Positions 25,144-32,709 of a stretch of DNA of 35,117 nucleotides are shown in pieces. The DNA is taken from the NCBI GenBank assembly GCA_945865815.1, contig CAMBFR010000033.1:1-35117 (forward strand). The letters are read 5' to 3'. The first letter of the stretch is position 1. Each line of letters starts with the position of its first letter. Source of the stretch: Candidatus Sulfopaludibacter sp. SbA3. Lineage in GTDB: Bacteria; Acidobacteriota; Terriglobia; 20CM-2-55-15. A program made the position numbers and the translations under genes. The notes under the pieces were generated by a model. The model worked only from the letters and a program-made list of their open reading frames with translations, had not been told where the DNA came from and did no database searches.

Positions 25144-25172
25144 TTGACTCTCGGCCGCTTTGACTGTATAAA
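25144..25172 (+). promoter_or_regulatory. Promoter of argC
   Basis: TTGACT (25144-25149), a 17-bp spacer, TATAAA (25167-25172). The argC ATG is at 25178, so the mRNA is predicted to start at or beside the start codon. The -10 box lies inside the first ARG-box-like site. Confidence 0.75.
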
Positions 25173-25178
25173 TATGCA
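25165..25178. promoter_or_regulatory. ARG box 1 of argC (weaker)
   Basis: TGTATAAATATGCA fits the TGAAT-N4-ATTCA core at 4/5 and 4/5. It overlaps the -10 box, so ArgR bound here would block RNA polymerase. Confidence 0.6.
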
Positions 25179-26173
25179 TGACTGTGCATAATTATTCAAA
25201 GCATGTCGCAATCGTCGGGGTCACCGGTTATTCGGGCCGGGAGCTGGACGGGCTGCTTCGCTTCCATCCAGAGATCCAGGTTTCGGGACGCTTTGCCTCC
25301 AAAGCCGACTCCAAGACCGGCGCCGAGGCATTCAGCCTTGAGACACTCCGTACCAAATCGCCTGATGTCGTGGTTCTTGCCACGGAGCACGACCTTTCGC
25401 ACGAACTCGTTCCGCAGCTGCTGGAGGAAGGTTACCGCGTACTGGATATGAGCGGTGCGTTCCGGCTGCCCGAAGCGGCGCAATATTCAGAATGGTACGG
25501 ATTCGAGCACCGCGCGACGGGTCTTCTGAAGGAATCTGTTTACGGACTCCCGGAGTTTTATGCAGAAAGAATTCAGAAGGCGCGCCTGGTCGCCAATCCC
25601 GGTTGCTACGCGACAGCCGCGATACTGCCGTTACGCCCGCTGTACATGGCCGGTGCGATCGATCTGGCGGCGCCGGTTGTGGTCGACGGAAAGTCCGGTG
25701 TTTCCGGGGCCGGACGCCATCCCAAACCGGAAACCCATTTCTGTGAAGTAAACGAAAACCTCAAAGCGTATGGCGTACTGAAGCATCGGCACACGCCCGA
25801 GATGATCAGCCAGCTTCCGGGCGCATCAGTCGATCAATTCGTTTTTACGCCGCATTTGATACCGATCACCCGGGGCATCCTGTGTACCATTGTGCTGCGC
25901 GCTGCAGGAGGCGCATCGGTCCAGGGCATTCTGAGTGAGGCCTATGCCGGGACACCGTTTGTCGAAGTGCTGGCGCCGCCGTCAATGCCATCAATGCCCG
26001 ACATCCAGAGTGTGGTTCGGACGAATGTGTGCCGCATGGGCGTAGCGTCGAATGGAGCGAACACGGTGATCGTATCGGCGATCGACAATCTTGTTAAGGG
26101 CGCGGCAGGACAGGCTCTTCAGAATTTGAACCTCATGTTGGGCTGCGAACAAGGGGCGGGTATTTCCAGATGA
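25178..26173 (+). CDS. argC: N-acetyl-γ-glutamyl-phosphate reductase
   Basis: Third step of arginine synthesis: NADPH-dependent reduction of N-acetylglutamyl phosphate to the semialdehyde, in the cytosol. The nucleotide-binding GVTGYSGREL is at residues 14-23 and the catalytic Cys143 in NPGCYATA. Further conserved are YGLPEFY, DGKSGVSGAGR, and the HRHTPEM loop. Full length at 331 aa. It starts the argC-argB-argA unit; argB overlaps its end by four bases. The ATG at 25178 lies five bases after the -10 box, with tandem ARG boxes around it, so it should be repressed by ArgR with arginine. Confidence 0.96.
   Translation: MTVHNYSKHVAIVGVTGYSGRELDGLLRFHPEIQVSGRFASKADSKTGAEAFSLETLRTKSPDVVVLATEHDLSHELVPQLLEEGYRVLDMSGAFRLPEAAQYSEWYGFEHRATGLLKESVYGLPEFYAERIQKARLVANPGCYATAAILPLRPLYMAGAIDLAAPVVVDGKSGVSGAGRHPKPETHFCEVNENLKAYGVLKHRHTPEMISQLPGASVDQFVFTPHLIPITRGILCTIVLRAAGGASVQGILSEAYAGTPFVEVLAPPSMPSMPDIQSVVRTNVCRMGVASNGANTVIVSAIDNLVKGAAGQALQNLNLMLGCEQGAGISR
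25185..25198. promoter_or_regulatory. ARG box 2 of argC (stronger)
   Basis: TGCATAATTATTCA fits the TGAAT-N4-ATTCA core at 4/5 and 5/5. Its centre is 20 bp from that of box 1, the spacing bound by one ArgR hexamer in E. coli-type operators (20-21 bp). It lies inside codons 3-7 of argC. Confidence 0.7.
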
Positions 26174-26859
26174 CTGTTGTCGTGAAAGTCGGCGGCGTCT
26201 CGCTCGAGAATGCCGGAAAGGCCGTTGAACGGATTCAGGAGGTGGGCGGTTCGTCCAGGGTGATCGTTCACGGGGGCGGCGTGCAGATTTCCCGGATGAT
26301 GGAACGCATGAAGATCGAGCCTCGATTTGTGGACGGGCTGCGCGTCACGGACGAAAAGGCGTTACAGGCAGTGGCGGCGGCGCTTCTGGGCGAGGTGCAC
26401 ACTTCCCTGATTGCCGCCCTGCATACGGCTGGAGTCCGGGCGGTCGGCTTGTTTGGCGTGATCGCGGCGTCCAAAAGGGAAGGCCCCTGGGGTCTGGTCG
26501 GAACCAACATTCAGGTCAATGCGGCTGCGATCCGGGCCGTGATCGAAGCGGGCCAGACGCCGGTGATCGCAACGCTGGCGATCGGCGGGAATTCTCTTTT
26601 GAATGTGAATGGGGACGAAAGCGCCGCGGCGATCGCGGTCGCATTGGAAGCAAGCGACCTGGTATTTCTCACTGACGTCGAAGGCGTCAAGGATGGCACG
26701 GGACAGGTGTTGGAGCGCGGTCCGAGTCCGGCCATGCTGCTGAAGTCCGATTTCGTCAGCGGTGGCATGCTTCCCAAACTTCGCGCGGTCCAGACCGCTC
26801 TGGATGGCGGGGTTGGAAACGTGCGCGTGGGCCGCACGATCTTTGCGAGTACGTCATGA
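26170..26859 (+). CDS. argB: Acetylglutamate kinase
   Basis: Phosphorylates N-acetylglutamate with ATP, the second step of arginine synthesis. Amino-acid-kinase fold with VVKVGGVSLEN near the N-terminus, VHGGGVQISRMMER, the substrate loop GLRVTDEKAL, and the ATP/metal segments ATLAIGG and FLTDVEGVKDG, plus KLRAVQTALDGGV near the C-terminus. At 229 aa it is shorter than many (about 258-300). It lacks the N-terminal helix that mediates arginine-feedback hexamers in other species, so it is likely arginine-insensitive (inference). ATGA overlaps with both argC and the acetyltransferase gene. Confidence 0.94.
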   Translation: MTVVVKVGGVSLENAGKAVERIQEVGGSSRVIVHGGGVQISRMMERMKIEPRFVDGLRVTDEKALQAVAAALLGEVHTSLIAALHTAGVRAVGLFGVIAASKREGPWGLVGTNIQVNAAAIRAVIEAGQTPVIATLAIGGNSLLNVNGDESAAAIAVALEASDLVFLTDVEGVKDGTGQVLERGPSPAMLLKSDFVSGGMLPKLRAVQTALDGGVGNVRVGRTIFASTS

Positions 26860-27359
26860 AGATTCGACCGGCGGAACACGGCGATATTCCCGGCATGGTC
26901 CATTTGATCGGCCATTACGCGTCGGAAGGCCTGATGCTGCCTCGTTCTTCCAACGCTATTGCCGCCGGACTGGCGGAGTATCTTGTCGCCGATGTAGTGG
27001 GCGAAGTGGTCGGATGCGGCGCCCTTCAGCAATACTCCGACGACAGCGCGGAACTGTACGGACTGGCGACTCATCCTGAACACTCGCCGCGGGGCACAGG
27101 AAGCGCGCTCGTGGAGGCGCTGATCGAAAAAGCGCGGACCGCAAACATTGCTCGCGTGTTCGCGCTCACACTGGTGCCCGTATTCTTCCAGAAGATGGGC
27201 TTTCATACCGTCCAGCATAATGACGTTCCACTCAAGGTATGGAAGGACTGTGTGGTATGCCCGAAATTCGGCAATTGCGACGAGATCGCCATGCTGCTGG
27301 AAGTCGGCGTTCCTGTCGTCAGCCACTCGCGGCAGCCCGCGTTGTTCAAAGCACTTTAA
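26856..27359 (+). CDS. argA: Single-domain N-acetylglutamate synthase (GNAT, ArgA type)
   Basis: A 167-aa GNAT acetyltransferase that likely makes N-acetylglutamate from acetyl-CoA and glutamate. It matches the short ArgA type (as in Mycobacterium Rv2747). Features: IRPAEHGDIPGMVHLI at the start, the acetyl-CoA loop region ATHPEHSPRGTGSALV, VFFQKMGFH, and a C-terminal WKDCVVCPKFGNCDEIAM with Cys spacing CxxC...C, which may be a metal site. The ATG overlaps argB by four bases. Function rests on family and operon context; another amino-acid acetylation is the alternative. Confidence 0.82.
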   Translation: MKIRPAEHGDIPGMVHLIGHYASEGLMLPRSSNAIAAGLAEYLVADVVGEVVGCGALQQYSDDSAELYGLATHPEHSPRGTGSALVEALIEKARTANIARVFALTLVPVFFQKMGFHTVQHNDVPLKVWKDCVVCPKFGNCDEIAMLLEVGVPVVSHSRQPALFKAL

Positions 27360-27493: not shown

Positions 27494-28831
27494 ATGCGAA
27501 ACGATCCCAAAAACATATTTGGATGGTGCATGTATGACTGGGCGAACTCGGCGTATATCACCACGGTCGCCGTCGGTGTGCTTCCCACCTACTTCGCATC
27601 GGTTGTCGTTGGACCCGAAGGACTGCGCATCGGAGGCTCCGTTTACAGCGCGACTACTCTCTGGGCTTTTGTCATCGGCTTTGCGTCCTTCATAACCTTT
27701 CTGATCGCGCCGGTTCTGGGCGCCATTTCCGACTTTTCCGCTTCAAAAAAGCGTTTCCTTCTCACCTTCGCGTATGCCGGCGCCTTGTTCACGCTGCTGC
27801 TCTACTTTTGCGGCTCCGGCGATGTCTACCTGACGCTCGTGCTGTTCCTGTTGGCGCAGGTGGGATACATCGGCGCGAACGTGTTCTACGACGCGTTCAT
27901 TTCCGAAATCGCAACCGACGACACGATGGACGCCGTTTCCGGCAAAGGATACGCATACGGCTATGTCGGCGGCGGATTGCAGTTTGCTTTCTCGCTGGTT
28001 CTCATTGCCGGCAGCGGCTGGATCGGCATTTCTCAAACGACGGCGGCGCGAATCGCAATCCTCACCGCGGCGGTCTGGTGGGCCGGCTTTTCGCTGTTCA
28101 CGGCCAGATACCTGCACGAAGCGCGAAAAGCGGCGCCCGTTCCGCCGGGCTATGGCCCAAAACTGCGAATCATCGATTACATCTCGATAGGCCTTTCGAG
28201 AACAATCACAACGACACGAAAGATCGGGCAGTTCCCGCATCTGGTGCTGTTTCTGGTGGCGTTCATGCTTTACAACGACGGCATCCAGACAGTCCTGGAT
28301 ATGGCAACGATCTACGGGACTGAAGAGTTGAACCTGTCGACGACGACCCTGCTTGTCACGCTGCTGGTGATCCAGATTATCGCGACGGTCGGCGCGCTCG
28401 TCTTCAGCCGGATTGCGGCCCGGATCGGATCGAAGCGCGCCATCATGATCACTCTGGCCCTGTGGTCTGGTGTGGTTATTTATGCATACTTCATCCAGAC
28501 GGCGGCGGAGTATTTCGCGCTCGGAGTCGTGGTTGGAATCGTTCTCGGGGGTTCGCAGGCGCTGAGCCGGTCTTTCTACGGATCGATGGTTCCGGAAGAG
28601 GCGAGCGCCGAGTTCTTCGGCTTCTACACGGTTTTCAGCCGTTTTTCGGCGATCTGGGGACCCCTGACATTCGCGGTCATCCGGCAGTGGGCAGGTTCGT
28701 CGAGGTTGGCCATCGTCTCGCTGATTTTTTTCTTTGTTGCCGGCCTTGTGCTGCTGGCGTTCGTTAACGAGAAGAAAGCCCGTGAAGCGAAGACGCACCG
28801 CCTTTTCGATTCACGAGATTCTCAGGCGTGA
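27494..28831 (+). CDS. MFS transporter, UMF1 family
   Basis: Major facilitator of the UMF1 (Atg22-like) family, 445 aa with about 12 membrane segments. Start of family: NIFGWCMYDWANSAYITTV. A loop with APVLGAISDFSASKKR follows the second segment region. A second half begins near 250 (LVLFLVAFMLYNDGIQTV), with a GSQALSRSFYGSMVPEE motif and EFFGFYTVFSRFSAIWGP. The substrate is unknown; yeast Atg22 exports amino acids from vacuoles, so arginine-related export is only a guess. Its end overlaps the end of argH by 68 bp, tail to tail. No good Shine-Dalgarno sequence precedes the ATG, and the nested repeats separate it from argA by 134 bp. Confidence 0.88.
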   Translation: MRNDPKNIFGWCMYDWANSAYITTVAVGVLPTYFASVVVGPEGLRIGGSVYSATTLWAFVIGFASFITFLIAPVLGAISDFSASKKRFLLTFAYAGALFTLLLYFCGSGDVYLTLVLFLLAQVGYIGANVFYDAFISEIATDDTMDAVSGKGYAYGYVGGGLQFAFSLVLIAGSGWIGISQTTAARIAILTAAVWWAGFSLFTARYLHEARKAAPVPPGYGPKLRIIDYISIGLSRTITTTRKIGQFPHLVLFLVAFMLYNDGIQTVLDMATIYGTEELNLSTTTLLVTLLVIQIIATVGALVFSRIAARIGSKRAIMITLALWSGVVIYAYFIQTAAEYFALGVVVGIVLGGSQALSRSFYGSMVPEEASAEFFGFYTVFSRFSAIWGPLTFAVIRQWAGSSRLAIVSLIFFFVAGLVLLAFVNEKKAREAKTHRLFDSRDSQA

Positions 28832-30089
28832 GGTAGTCCGCCGGAAGGTCTGCAAACAGCGGCGAATACTCCATCAAGTTGATCTCGTTCAGCCGTTTCT
28901 TGCCGGCGATCGCGTCGCGCACGGCGCGCCCCACTGTTTCGTGGGCCGTTCTGAAGGGCACGCCTTTCATGACGAGGAAATCGGCCAGGTCGGTGGCGCC
29001 CATGAAAGAATCCGCGGCGGCAATGGCCATCCGCTCTTTGTTGAGGACGACACTACGGACGGTCAGCCGCAGGACGCTCAGGGCGAGGCGAAGTATATTG
29101 AATGCCGCAAAGAACGCTTCTTTGTCTTCCTGAAGATCCTTGTCGTAGGCGGTTGGCAGACCCTTCATCACGACGAGAAACCCGGTAAGTAACCCCGTCA
29201 TGACGCCGGCCTTCGCGCGAATCAATTCGAGGCCGTCCGGATTTTTCTTTTGCGGCATGAGGCTGCTGCCCGTCGTGACCTTCTCGGAAAGCTCGAGGAA
29301 CCCGAATTCTTCGGTGGAATAGATGATCCAGTCTTCCGCAAGGCGGCTGGCGTGCACCATTGTGATTGCCGCATTCGATAGGAACTCGATCACAAAGTCG
29401 CGGTCGCAGGTGGCGTCGACGGTACTTTTGGAAATGCGGCTGAATCCCAGTTCCCGGGCTATGGCCTCCCGATCCACCGGAAAATTGGAGCCCGCAACGG
29501 CGCCCGAGCCCAGTGGCAGCACATCCACGCGGCCGACAGACTGCTCGAAGCGTTCCCGGTCGCGGCGGAACATTTCAATAAACGCGGCGCAATAGGCGCT
29601 CCAGCGGATGGGCTGAGCCCTGCGCAGATGGGTATACGCCGGAAGCAGGACGTCGGCATTCGCATTGCCGGATTCGGTAAATGCGATATCCAGAGCATCG
29701 AGATCGGCCAGCACCAGGGCAATGGCCTTGCGGACGAAGAGCCTGAAATCGGTTGCAACCTGATCGTTACGGCTGCGGCCGGTATGGAGTTTGAATGCGG
29801 CCTGCCCGATCTTCTGGGCCAGCGTGGCCTCGACGAAGGTGTGAATGTCCTCGTAGGGCATCGTCTTCACCTGGTCGAGCGTATATTCGGTGAGAATCTG
29901 TTCCAGGCCGCGGTCGATGTCCTGCCATTCGGCTTCGGTCAGGACGCCGCACCCCAGCAACGCCCGCGCGTGCGCGCGGCTGGCGCGGATATCTTCGTCA
30001 AGCAGAACAGCGTCGATGCCGAGCGACCGGTTCATCTTCTCGAAAACCGGGTCGCCGGCTTCTTCAAAACGTCCTTGCCACAGTTTCAT
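28764..30089 (-). CDS. argH: Argininosuccinate lyase
   Basis: Last arginine step: argininosuccinate to arginine and fumarate. The start is placed at ATG 30089, where the family N-terminus MKLWQGRFEEAGDPVFE begins, rather than at a distal frame start (30212). It has TGRSRNDQVATDFRLF, AYTHLRRAQPIRWS and the signature GSSLMPQKKNPDGLELIRAK of the lyase superfamily with the catalytic Ser. The C-terminus ends in NLVNRKGGASSL and is normal. Length is 441 aa. It starts 26 bp inside the argG 3' end. Its 3' end overlaps that of the transporter gene by 68 bp. Confidence 0.95.
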   Translation of the reverse strand: MKLWQGRFEEAGDPVFEKMNRSLGIDAVLLDEDIRASRAHARALLGCGVLTEAEWQDIDRGLEQILTEYTLDQVKTMPYEDIHTFVEATLAQKIGQAAFKLHTGRSRNDQVATDFRLFVRKAIALVLADLDALDIAFTESGNANADVLLPAYTHLRRAQPIRWSAYCAAFIEMFRRDRERFEQSVGRVDVLPLGSGAVAGSNFPVDREAIARELGFSRISKSTVDATCDRDFVIEFLSNAAITMVHASRLAEDWIIYSTEEFGFLELSEKVTTGSSLMPQKKNPDGLELIRAKAGVMTGLLTGFLVVMKGLPTAYDKDLQEDKEAFFAAFNILRLALSVLRLTVRSVVLNKERMAIAAADSFMGATDLADFLVMKGVPFRTAHETVGRAVRDAIAGKKRLNEINLMEYSPLFADLPADYLTPENLVNRKGGASSLHGLSSR

Positions 30090-31308
30090 GTTGTTTTGGA
30101 ACTTCCAACTTCGAACCCTGTATCTGTGATCGGACTGCGGCGGGAAGTCCAACGACGTTGATGAAGCCTTCAACGTTGTGGGAATTCTGGGTTCCGGTTT
30201 CGAATGATGCAATATCGTAGCTATAGAGGCTGAATGGCGACTGGCGGCTCCTCACGCTCATGGTCCCTTTGTAAAGGCTCATCGTGATCGAACCGGTGAC
30301 GACTTCCTGGGTCTTGTTGAAGAAAGCGTCCATGGCTTCCCTCAATGGCGTGAACCACTGTCCGTCATAGATCATCTGTCCGTAGGTGATGCTCAACATT
30401 TCTTTTTGATACCGCGTCTGCCTGTCGAGGGTCAGTGACTCCAGTTCGCGGTGCGCAGCCATGATCAGGGTGCCGCCGGGCGTCTCGTAGACGCCGCGGG
30501 ACTTCATGCCGACCACGCGGTTCTCAACCATATCGACGCGGCCGATACCGTTTGTTCCGGCAATTTCGTTCAGGTCTTCAAGAAGCTGGACGGGAGGAAT
30601 CCGGTATCCATTGAGTCCGACCGGAACGCCTTCTTCAAAGTCGATCGTGATTTCGCTTTCGCCGCTCGGACACGACCGGGCATCGACGGTAAACATGTAC
30701 AGGTCGGCCGGCGGCGGCTCTGCCGGATCTTCGAGGATGCCGCCCTCGTGGCTGATATGCCACAGGTTGCTGTCGCGGCTGAATATCTTCTCGGCCGTTG
30801 CCGCGACTGGAATATTCCGCTCCCTTGCATATGCAAGGGCATCGTGGCGTGAACGGATATTCCATTCGCGCCAGGGCGCAATGATTTTCAGGTGAGGGGC
30901 AAATGCTTTGTACGCGAGTTCGAAGCGGACCTGGTCGTTTCCCTTTCCGGTGCAACCGTGCGCGAGGGCATCGGCGCCTTCTTCGAGAGCAATTTCGACC
31001 TGGCGCTTTGCGAGCAGCGGCCGGGCTATGGAAGTGCCCAAAAGGTACTGGCCTTCATACTGCGTCCCGGACTTTACGAGCTGCCACAGATACTCAGTAA
31101 CGAATTCGTGACGAAGGTCTTCGACGTAGCATTTCGAGGCGCCGGATCGGAGGGCTTTCTGCTCGAGGCCGCTCAGGTCCTCGTCCTGGCCGATGTTTCC
31201 GGCCATGGCGATAATCTCACAGCCATAGTTTTCTTTGAGCCATGGAATGATGATCGATGTATCCAGGCCGCCGGAATATGCCAGCACGACCTTCTTCACT
31301 TGTTTCAT
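30064..31308 (-). CDS. argG: Argininosuccinate synthase
   Basis: ATP-dependent condensation of citrulline and aspartate. The N-terminal PP-loop motif AYSGGLDTS is at residues 9-17. Later motifs: LGTSIARPLLAK, HGCTGKGNDQVRFE and APWREW, and SRDSNLWHISHEGG. Full length at 414 aa, including the C-terminal helix. The start at 31308 matches the family N-terminus, with GGAG ten bases upstream, yet it lies 92 bp inside the end of argF, which is unusually long (see findings). It is second gene of argF-argG-argH. Confidence 0.96.
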   Translation of the reverse strand: MKQVKKVVLAYSGGLDTSIIIPWLKENYGCEIIAMAGNIGQDEDLSGLEQKALRSGASKCYVEDLRHEFVTEYLWQLVKSGTQYEGQYLLGTSIARPLLAKRQVEIALEEGADALAHGCTGKGNDQVRFELAYKAFAPHLKIIAPWREWNIRSRHDALAYARERNIPVAATAEKIFSRDSNLWHISHEGGILEDPAEPPPADLYMFTVDARSCPSGESEITIDFEEGVPVGLNGYRIPPVQLLEDLNEIAGTNGIGRVDMVENRVVGMKSRGVYETPGGTLIMAAHRELESLTLDRQTRYQKEMLSITYGQMIYDGQWFTPLREAMDAFFNKTQEVVTGSITMSLYKGTMSVRSRQSPFSLYSYDIASFETGTQNSHNVEGFINVVGLPAAVRSQIQGSKLEVPKQHETVARTF

Positions 31309-32206
31309 ACCGATTCTCCACTAACGAAAATAAAACCGCTTTTTCCACAGGCAACCGGTTGGCGGCCTGCTGGAAAACAATGGAGTCTTCCGACTCGATC
31401 ACCAGGCCATCGACTTCCTGGCCCCGGTGCGCGGGAAGGCAATGCATAAAGAGGGTGCGCTTGCCGGTCATGGCCATAAGCGCTTCGTTAACCTGATATG
31501 GCGCGAAAATCTTCAGACGCTCAGCCAGTTCGTCTTCCTGTCCCATGCTGGCCCACACGTCGGTGTATATGGCATCGGCGCCCTTGACTTCGGCCGGCTT
31601 CGTCGACCAATCCACCTGCTCGTCATCCGCAGGGCCGAAGCCTTCGGGACAAACCGCGCGAAACTGGAGACCTGCCAACTGACATGTGCGTCCGAGCGAA
31701 CGCGAAACATTGTTCCAGTCTCCGACGTAGACGAGCTGCTTGTTGGTAAATCCCGGCCAGATATCGAGAAGCGTCAGCAGGTCGGCCAATGCCTGGCAGG
31801 GATGCTCATAGTCGCTCAGGGCGTTGACGACAGGCAGCGCCGAGTAAGCCGCTAGTTCTTCGAGAGCCCGATGACTGAAAACCCGGGCCACGATCGCATC
31901 AACCCATTGCGACAGGCTTCGCGCAACATCGGGAACGGCCTCGCGCTCTCCGAGGCGAGCTTCAGGCAGCAGAATCGGCCAGCCTCCCAGTTGCCGGATC
32001 GCAACTTCAAACGTGACTCGAGTGCGAAGCGAGGGCTTTTCAAAGATGAGCGCGACGCTTTTACCCTGGAGCGCATCTGCAAACATCTCTCTTGAACGCA
32101 GGTCGCGCGACAAAGCCAGAAGATCGAAGAACCCGCTTCTTGTCAGGTCCGAGATGCTCAGAAGATCGCGTTTGCCATCCGGAGCGGTGTCTGAATAGTT
32201 ATTCAT
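31217..32206 (-). CDS. argF: Ornithine carbamoyltransferase
   Basis: Makes citrulline from ornithine and carbamoyl phosphate. Motifs: FEKPSLRTRVTFE (carbamoyl-phosphate loop, residues about 58-70), ALSDYEHPCQALADLLT and the ornithine-site FMHCLPAHRGQEV near the C-terminus. No clear feature of N-acetylornithine-type enzymes was seen. ATG 32206 was chosen because the perfect ARG box and the -10 box sit just upstream; the 8 codons before are out of the promoter logic. At 329 aa it carries about 30 residues beyond the usual C-terminal helix (after EKAVLFSL), encoded in the 92-bp overlap with argG. Confidence 0.94.
   Translation of the reverse strand: MNNYSDTAPDGKRDLLSISDLTRSGFFDLLALSRDLRSREMFADALQGKSVALIFEKPSLRTRVTFEVAIRQLGGWPILLPEARLGEREAVPDVARSLSQWVDAIVARVFSHRALEELAAYSALPVVNALSDYEHPCQALADLLTLLDIWPGFTNKQLVYVGDWNNVSRSLGRTCQLAGLQFRAVCPEGFGPADDEQVDWSTKPAEVKGADAIYTDVWASMGQEDELAERLKIFAPYQVNEALMAMTGKRTLFMHCLPAHRGQEVDGLVIESEDSIVFQQAANRLPVEKAVLFSLVENRYETSEEGRAGIFRRPGYIDHHSMAQRKLWL
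32192..32205. promoter_or_regulatory. ARG box 1 of argF (strong, perfect core)
   Basis: TGAATAGTTATTCA matches the TGAAT-N4-ATTCA core at all ten positions. It overlaps the argF ATG (32206-32204) and is 20 bp from box 2 centre to centre. Confidence 0.85.
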
Positions 32207-32211
32207 AATAC

Positions 32212-32225
32212 TGCATAAGTATGCG
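32212..32225. promoter_or_regulatory. ARG box 2 of argF (weaker)
   Basis: TGCATAAGTATGCG matches the core at 4/5 and 3/5 and is itself a GCATA/TATGC palindrome. It overlaps the -10 box of argF. Confidence 0.6.
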
Positions 32226-32246
32226 ATCACAACGCTGCGGCGTCAA
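32218..32246 (-). promoter_or_regulatory. Promoter of argFGH
   Basis: On the minus strand TTGACG (32246-32241), a 17-bp spacer, and CATACT (32223-32218). The argF ATG at 32206 is 11 bases after the -10 box, so only a very short leader is expected. ArgR bound to the two ARG boxes would cover it. Confidence 0.65.
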
Positions 32247-32252
32247 TTACTT

Positions 32253-32261
32253 TGTTATAAT
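32253..32261 (+). promoter_or_regulatory. Extended -10 promoter of argR
   Basis: TGT precedes a perfect TATAAT (32256-32261); the argR ATG is at 32272, ten bases on. No clear -35. It lies outside the argF ARG boxes, so any autorepression would be partial. Confidence 0.65.
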
Positions 32262-32271
32262 TTCCCACCTT

Positions 32272-32709
32272 ATGAAACGGGCGCGGCACAAGGCGATCGT
32301 GGACCTCGTTCGAACCGGCGAAATCTACAGCCAGGACGACCTGATGCGAGGGCTGGAAGCGAGAAGAATCGAAGTCTCTCAATCCACGTTGTCGCGCGAT
32401 ATTCAGGAGTTGCGCCTGGCTAAGACGGCCGGCCTTTACACGCTTGTGGATACCGAGCCGGCAAAGACATCGGAAGATGATGTGCGGCGGATCATTCAGG
32501 AGTTCCTTATAGAAATTGCAGTCGCGGAAAACCTGGTGATCCTGAAAACGGGTCCCGGCAACGCTTCGCCGCTCTCGCGGGCTATTGACGATGCGGCGTG
32601 GCCGGAAGTGGTCGGCAGTATCGCGGGCGACGACACGATATTCGTTGCGGCGCGCTCCTCGCGCGACGCGCGGAAGCTCGAACACCGGTTTCGGGGGATT
32701 CTAGAATAG
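32272..32709 (+). CDS. argR: Arginine repressor ArgR
   Basis: Arginine-dependent repressor, active as a hexamer. The N-terminal winged helix carries the recognition segment EVSQSTLSRDIQEL (S-R-D at residues 41-43). The C-terminal oligomerisation and arginine-binding part has GNASPLSRAIDDAAWPEVVG and GDDTIFVAARSS. It is 145 aa, normal. The start is ATG 32272, where the family N-terminus begins; the frame runs back to 32221 but those codons lie upstream of the TATAAT. It is divergent from argF, whose operators sit between them. Its end overlaps the end of folK by nine bases. Confidence 0.94.
   Translation: MKRARHKAIVDLVRTGEIYSQDDLMRGLEARRIEVSQSTLSRDIQELRLAKTAGLYTLVDTEPAKTSEDDVRRIIQEFLIEIAVAENLVILKTGPGNASPLSRAIDDAAWPEVVGSIAGDDTIFVAARSSRDARKLEHRFRGILE

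Follow-up and report, generated by a model that had tools for sequence, protein, structure and literature searches.

In Escherichia coli, arginine-loaded ArgR binds as one hexamer to the paired 18-bp boxes of the carAB P2 promoter and excludes RNA polymerase; these boxes overlap the -35 element and are separated by a 3-bp gap (21 bp from box to box), the gap being 2 bp at argR (PMC6245113). In Streptomyces clavuligerus the argC operator consists of two 18-nt ARG boxes 2 bp apart; it is described upstream of the gene, and is not known to place a box on the start codon or on N-terminal codons (PMC3293853). The same paper mentions one predicted ARG box of S. coelicolor that overlaps a start codon, so the bare overlap of a box with a start codon is not unprecedented. 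In Bacillus subtilis (argCO1/argCO2), AhrC boxes 11 bp apart cover the argC promoter, and one extra single operator lies in the argC coding region, apart from the promoter boxes (PMC9245794). A different regulator is found at the acuR-acuI-dddL operon of Rhodobacter sphaeroides, which is leaderless and has an operator over its promoter by the start codon; AcuR belongs to the TetR family and is autoregulatory, and its operator is described upstream of the ATG (PMC3017554). A -10-like signal placed about 10 bp ahead of the start codon has served to recognize leaderless genes, which were estimated at 9.7-19.4% of genes in three Acidobacteria genomes (PMC3160421). A search of the open-access literature returned no description of an ARG box that serves as start codon and N-terminal codons, no paper combining ArgR, ARG boxes and leaderless genes, and no ArgR work mentioning Acidobacteria; subscription literature lay outside this search, and descriptions may exist elsewhere.

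Here we analyse contig CAMBFR010000033.1 of Candidatus Sulfopaludibacter sp. SbA3 (a soil member of the Acidobacteriota), whose whole 35,117 nucleotides are called the window. Its argC site has paired boxes, 20-bp phasing and, by prediction, control of argC by ArgR in common with the S. clavuligerus operator, and shares with carAB P2 two 18-bp boxes overlapping a promoter, here a predicted one. As in B. subtilis, boxes lie over the argC promoter, a predicted one here, and there is an operator sequence within the argC coding region; in contrast to argCO2, however, the box in coding sequence is one member of the promoter pair and not an additional operator separate from it. Very probably, a leaderless or nearly leaderless argC-argB-acetyltransferase operon here has its promoter and start codon covered by a two-box ArgR operator of the classical kind, and argF-argG-argH is controlled by the same operator. 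The features discussed below are listed in Table 1.

Table 1. Genes, ARG boxes and predicted promoter elements of the two arg operons and of argR in the window.
Feature	Coordinates	Strand	Remarks
Predicted -35 hexamer of argC, TTGACT	25144..25149	+	5/6 to consensus, 17 bp before TATAAA; from consensus only
ARG box 1 of argC	25165..25178	+	TGTATAAATATGCA; kept in 7 relatives
Predicted -10 hexamer of argC, TATAAA	25167..25172	+	Inside ARG box 1; from sequence
argC	25184..26173	+	TIGR01850, 3.1e-102; GTG 25184 preferred, ATG 25178 alternative
ARG box 2 of argC	25185..25198	+	TGCATAATTATTCA; coding; kept in 7 relatives
argB, acetylglutamate kinase	26170..26859	+	TIGR00761, 3.7e-50; overlaps argC
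GNAT N-acetyltransferase	26856..27359	+	NF005840, 156.3 bits against a cut-off of 154; overlaps argB
argH	28767..30089	-	TIGR00838
argG	30067..31308	-	NF001770, TIGR00032
argF	31217..32206	-	TIGR00658; ATG 32206 on ARG box 2, start kept in 8 relatives
ARG box 2 of argF	32192..32205	-	TGAATAACTATTCA; coding
ARG box 1 of argF	32212..32225	-	CGCATACTTATGCA; overlaps predicted -10
Predicted argF promoter, TTGACG - 17 bp - CATACT	32218..32246	-	Promoter scan 9/12; from consensus only
Predicted -10 hexamer of argR, TATAAT	32256..32261	+	Ends 10 nt before argR ATG; from consensus only
argR, arginine repressor	32272..32709	+	PF01316 over cut-off; TIGR01529 122.6 bits, under cut-off of 130.45

Paired ARG boxes at argC and argF

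The two argC boxes lie exactly where an earlier note on this DNA had placed them. Each sequence is present as a single copy in the window, and the boxes are 20 bp apart, both from start to start and from centre to centre. The note had likened this spacing to that of paired ArgR sites in other bacteria, and footprinted ArgR operators do have the same spacing (PMC3293853, PMC6245113). At argC and at argF alike, two TGNATNNNTATNCA-core palindromes stand 20 bp, or about two helical turns, apart and adjoin the arginine biosynthesis genes of the respective operon. The argF pair, upstream of argF-argG-argH, has the same phasing and register as the argC pair, with the ATG beginning one base before box 2.

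The coding-region box of argC is the stronger one, as the note had held. An 18-bp ARG-box scan gave a sole perfect match in the window, at argC box 2 (25183-25200), and a palindromic matrix made from the ARG boxes of the family, both argC boxes among them, scored box 2 at 22.1 bits and box 1 at 18.4 bits. With this matrix, the only paired sites of the window were those starting at 25165 and at 32192, and the reversed window gave none. Inside argC, no further box of at least 11 bits was detected. Across the 4.34-Mb genome, a strict spaced-pair pattern matched once, at the argC site. When up to 3 mismatches were allowed in 18 fixed positions, the argC and argF pairs were the only matches, with 0 in the backwards control. 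By prediction, the regulon of paired sites thus comprises the two arg operons. G+C content is 27% in the argC box stretch and 58% in the window.

A third high-scoring box of the window, TGGTTATTTATGCA at 28473-28486, stands singly in a transporter gene; of the clusters compared, G001 and G006 alone share it, G006 with the opposite strand of the locus. Single and poorly recurrent, it was not counted as an operator; it is probably the product of chance plus coding constraint.

The acetyltransferase encoded after argB is probably an N-acetylglutamate synthase, a role suggested by its position. Alignments of the argR product with ArgR/AhrC proteins of solved structure run from end to end, the best at 9.2e-21. 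This presumed regulator gene is divergent from argF and lies in the same window, 7 kb from the argC site. With the predicted argR transcription start about 43-76 bp downstream of it, the argF operator might influence argR too. The argF frame overlaps the start of argG by about 90 bases (31217-31308, minus strand), which is long for an operon junction.

Predicted promoters and translation starts

The earlier note had placed one box over the -10 element. Box 1 of argC does cover a -10-like TATAAA, here a prediction, and relatives carry TTAAAT or TATAAA at the matching position. A strict promoter scan missed the argC promoter because the last base of TATAAA is not T, and a clear -35 is absent in most argC relatives. 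At argF the predicted -10, CATACT, occupies 32223-32218. The distance from -10 hexamer to start codon is 11 nt at argC (GTG) and at argF. No Shine-Dalgarno sequence precedes argC, argF or argR; some other genes of the window, such as argG, have one. By their -10 signals 11 nt before the start and their lack of a Shine-Dalgarno sequence, argC and argF resemble described leaderless genes.

With transcription starting 7 nt past the -10, at about 25179, the argC mRNA is predicted to be leaderless or nearly so: its leader would measure about 5 nt if GTG 25184 is the start codon, and ATG 25178 would leave none. Counted from this predicted start, box 2 would cover about +7 to +20 and the two boxes together about -14 to +20. 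The coding position of box 2 would follow from such a transcript, since an operator that spans both the -10 and the start site cannot then avoid the coding sequence. The argR gene also looks near-leaderless, from its TATAAT and the missing Shine-Dalgarno sequence.

We take GTG 25184 as the probable start of argC, because it aligns with the ATG of relatives and stands at the same distance from its -10 hexamer as the argF start. From this GTG, box 2 opens at the second base of the start codon and spells codons 2-5. The earlier note's claim that box 2 is coding thus stands; its assignment to codons 3-7 is doubtful, being true only for ATG 25178, and becomes codons 1-5 from the GTG. An in-frame stop is found 15 nt upstream of the box-2 RTG in 8/8 argC genes (the TAA within box 1 in the window), and in four of them (G000, G006, G009 and G010) no ATG, GTG or TTG follows that RTG before the conserved argC core. 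It follows that box 2 has to be translated.

The beginning of the argC mRNA (25179-25258) folds better than shuffled sequences (z -3.1); the fold is mostly a GC-rich hairpin in the coding sequence past box 2 (25208-25258).

Conservation in the family and the class

Among named relatives, the nearest are 'gp5' soil metagenome assemblies of Acidobacteria, and 13_1_20CM_2_55_15. The earlier note had made its reading depend on conservation of both boxes in close relatives. In unchanged register, 7 other family genomes carry the argC pair, for example as TGGTTAAATATGCA-n6-TGAATATTTATTCA, and have the start codon at the matching place; the argF pair is found in 8 relatives, among them the same-genus G001. 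In the incomplete assembly of G001, the nearest relative, argC is absent. Both boxes always occur together in the family, and argR is present in 11/11 family genomes.

Two genomes of another genus of the family (G002:C51, locus L131, and G005:C58, locus L132) have an argC that is divergent (38-41% identity) and lacks ARG boxes; ARG-like boxes remain in them only upstream of argR. Judging from these sequences, replacement of argC with loss of ArgR control is possible.

Of 299 genomes of the class, 121 matched a related pair pattern that allowed up to 2 mismatches (backwards control 0). By tblastn, argC, argF or argR lies beside the pair at 20 of the 21 class loci tested, and most of the further loci from a scan of the phylum encode one of these genes too. 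Families were given the working labels f1-f15, which are not taxon names. The box starts with TG, which makes an RTG partly automatic; it was therefore counted as an embedded start only if open into an arg gene, and pairs whose RTG does not, for example before argR in f9, were left out. A 20-bp pair with the argC start RTG on box 2 was found in f2 (MNNYS), f6 (mostly MHNYS or MHKYS) and f10 (GTG, then NKYS), and in f14 (G173) argR begins with MNIYS on its own ARG box. In f4, argC mostly starts 13-28 nt past the beginning of box 2. The f3 pairs are spaced 19 bp, with candidate argC starts further downstream, and most argC genes in the sampled genomes of f5, f7, f8 and f9 have no strong pair. 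In these comparisons the start codon shifts while the promoter-operator is conserved, and any ARG box with A or G in front of it provides a start codon ready-made.

At three f6 loci (L110, L111 and L115, near position 1500) the RTG of the pair opens only a short frame, (M/V)-[N/Y]-N-Y-T-F; the L110 and L111 pairs lie upstream of argF. These short frames could be fortuitous or encode leader peptides.

Proposed mode of repression

With ample arginine, a single arginine-loaded hexamer of ArgR would occupy both argC boxes and bar RNA polymerase from initiating; a drop in arginine would allow expression of the argC operon. The argF-argG-argH operon would be under the same type of operator. As the mRNA would begin at the start codon or a few nucleotides from it, the downstream half of the operator would be coding, box 2 providing R-TG as the start codon and [NH]-x-Y-[SA] as codons 2-5. 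We infer ArgR binding, repression, the transcription start and leaderless translation from the sequence.

The earlier note had gone further and proposed that ArgR blocks both polymerase binding and early elongation. This part of its reading was not retained: from about +7 to +20, box 2 is inside the footprint of an initiating polymerase, so that simple promoter occlusion suffices, and a roadblock to elongation is possible but unneeded. We regard as unlikely a division of labour in which ArgR would block polymerase at box 1 and act as a separate early-elongation roadblock at box 2. In its favour, box 2 outscores box 1 and is located past the predicted transcription start, and the AhrC operator inside the B. 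subtilis argC coding region (PMC9245794) offers a parallel. However, box 2 is phased 20 bp with box 1, like the one-hexamer operators that exclude polymerase, and the constant company of the two boxes in the family speaks against a separate roadblock, which would need no fixed phasing.

It is very improbable that transcription starts further upstream and that the boxes, or their RNA structure, act on a leadered mRNA. In a longer RNA the boxes could pair with each other, but the box-box fold is no better than that of shuffled sequences (z -0.53) and no Rfam family matches; an explanation by RNA structure was rejected on these two grounds. The lack of a Shine-Dalgarno sequence also argues against action on the mRNA, as does the presence of the same pair at argF, and at argR of other families, with different flanks. 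The boxes are, moreover, the DNA palindrome known from ArgR. Promoter occlusion by ArgR would account for all the observations. The predicted switch is real and conserved but mechanistically ordinary: the mechanism is known, the arrangement is new.

Selection on the coding box

In ArgC as in ArgF, the residues spelled by box 2 are M-[NH]-x-Y-[SA]. In the argC and argF sequences compared, its Tyr codon is always TAT, its Ser codon always TCA and its Ala codon GCA in all but one, whereas in the genes of the window TAT makes up 38% of Tyr codons, TCA 6.7% of Ser codons and GCA 13.7% of Ala codons. The log10 probability of these synonymous choices is -9.4 for argC and -8.0 for argF, distinct sequences being taken as independent, which they are not fully. 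The exchange between Ser and Ala corresponds to the T/G ambiguity of the ARG box.

Short and partly coding as the boxes are, we give practically no weight to the idea that they are chance AT-rich palindromes or an N-terminus conserved as protein: control patterns never reproduced the pair found across the class, ArgC and ArgF are not homologous, so that a shared protein motif is no explanation for their common beginning, the synonymous codons that are fixed are rare ones, conservation extends to the non-coding box 1, and no relatives were seen with the same N-terminal residues from other codons. It is likely, instead, that box 2 gives the start codon and thereby imposes M-[NH]-x-Y-[SA] on ArgC and ArgF, and on ArgR of another family, in the leaderless arg operons of the class.

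Biological significance

These results correct gene starts in a poorly studied phylum, where ArgR control gains a clear sequence signature. Leaderless transcription would push the operator into coding sequence, and a constraint of DNA binding would thus shape the N-termini of unrelated enzymes. If this is true, the N-terminus of a protein is the footprint of selection on an operator.
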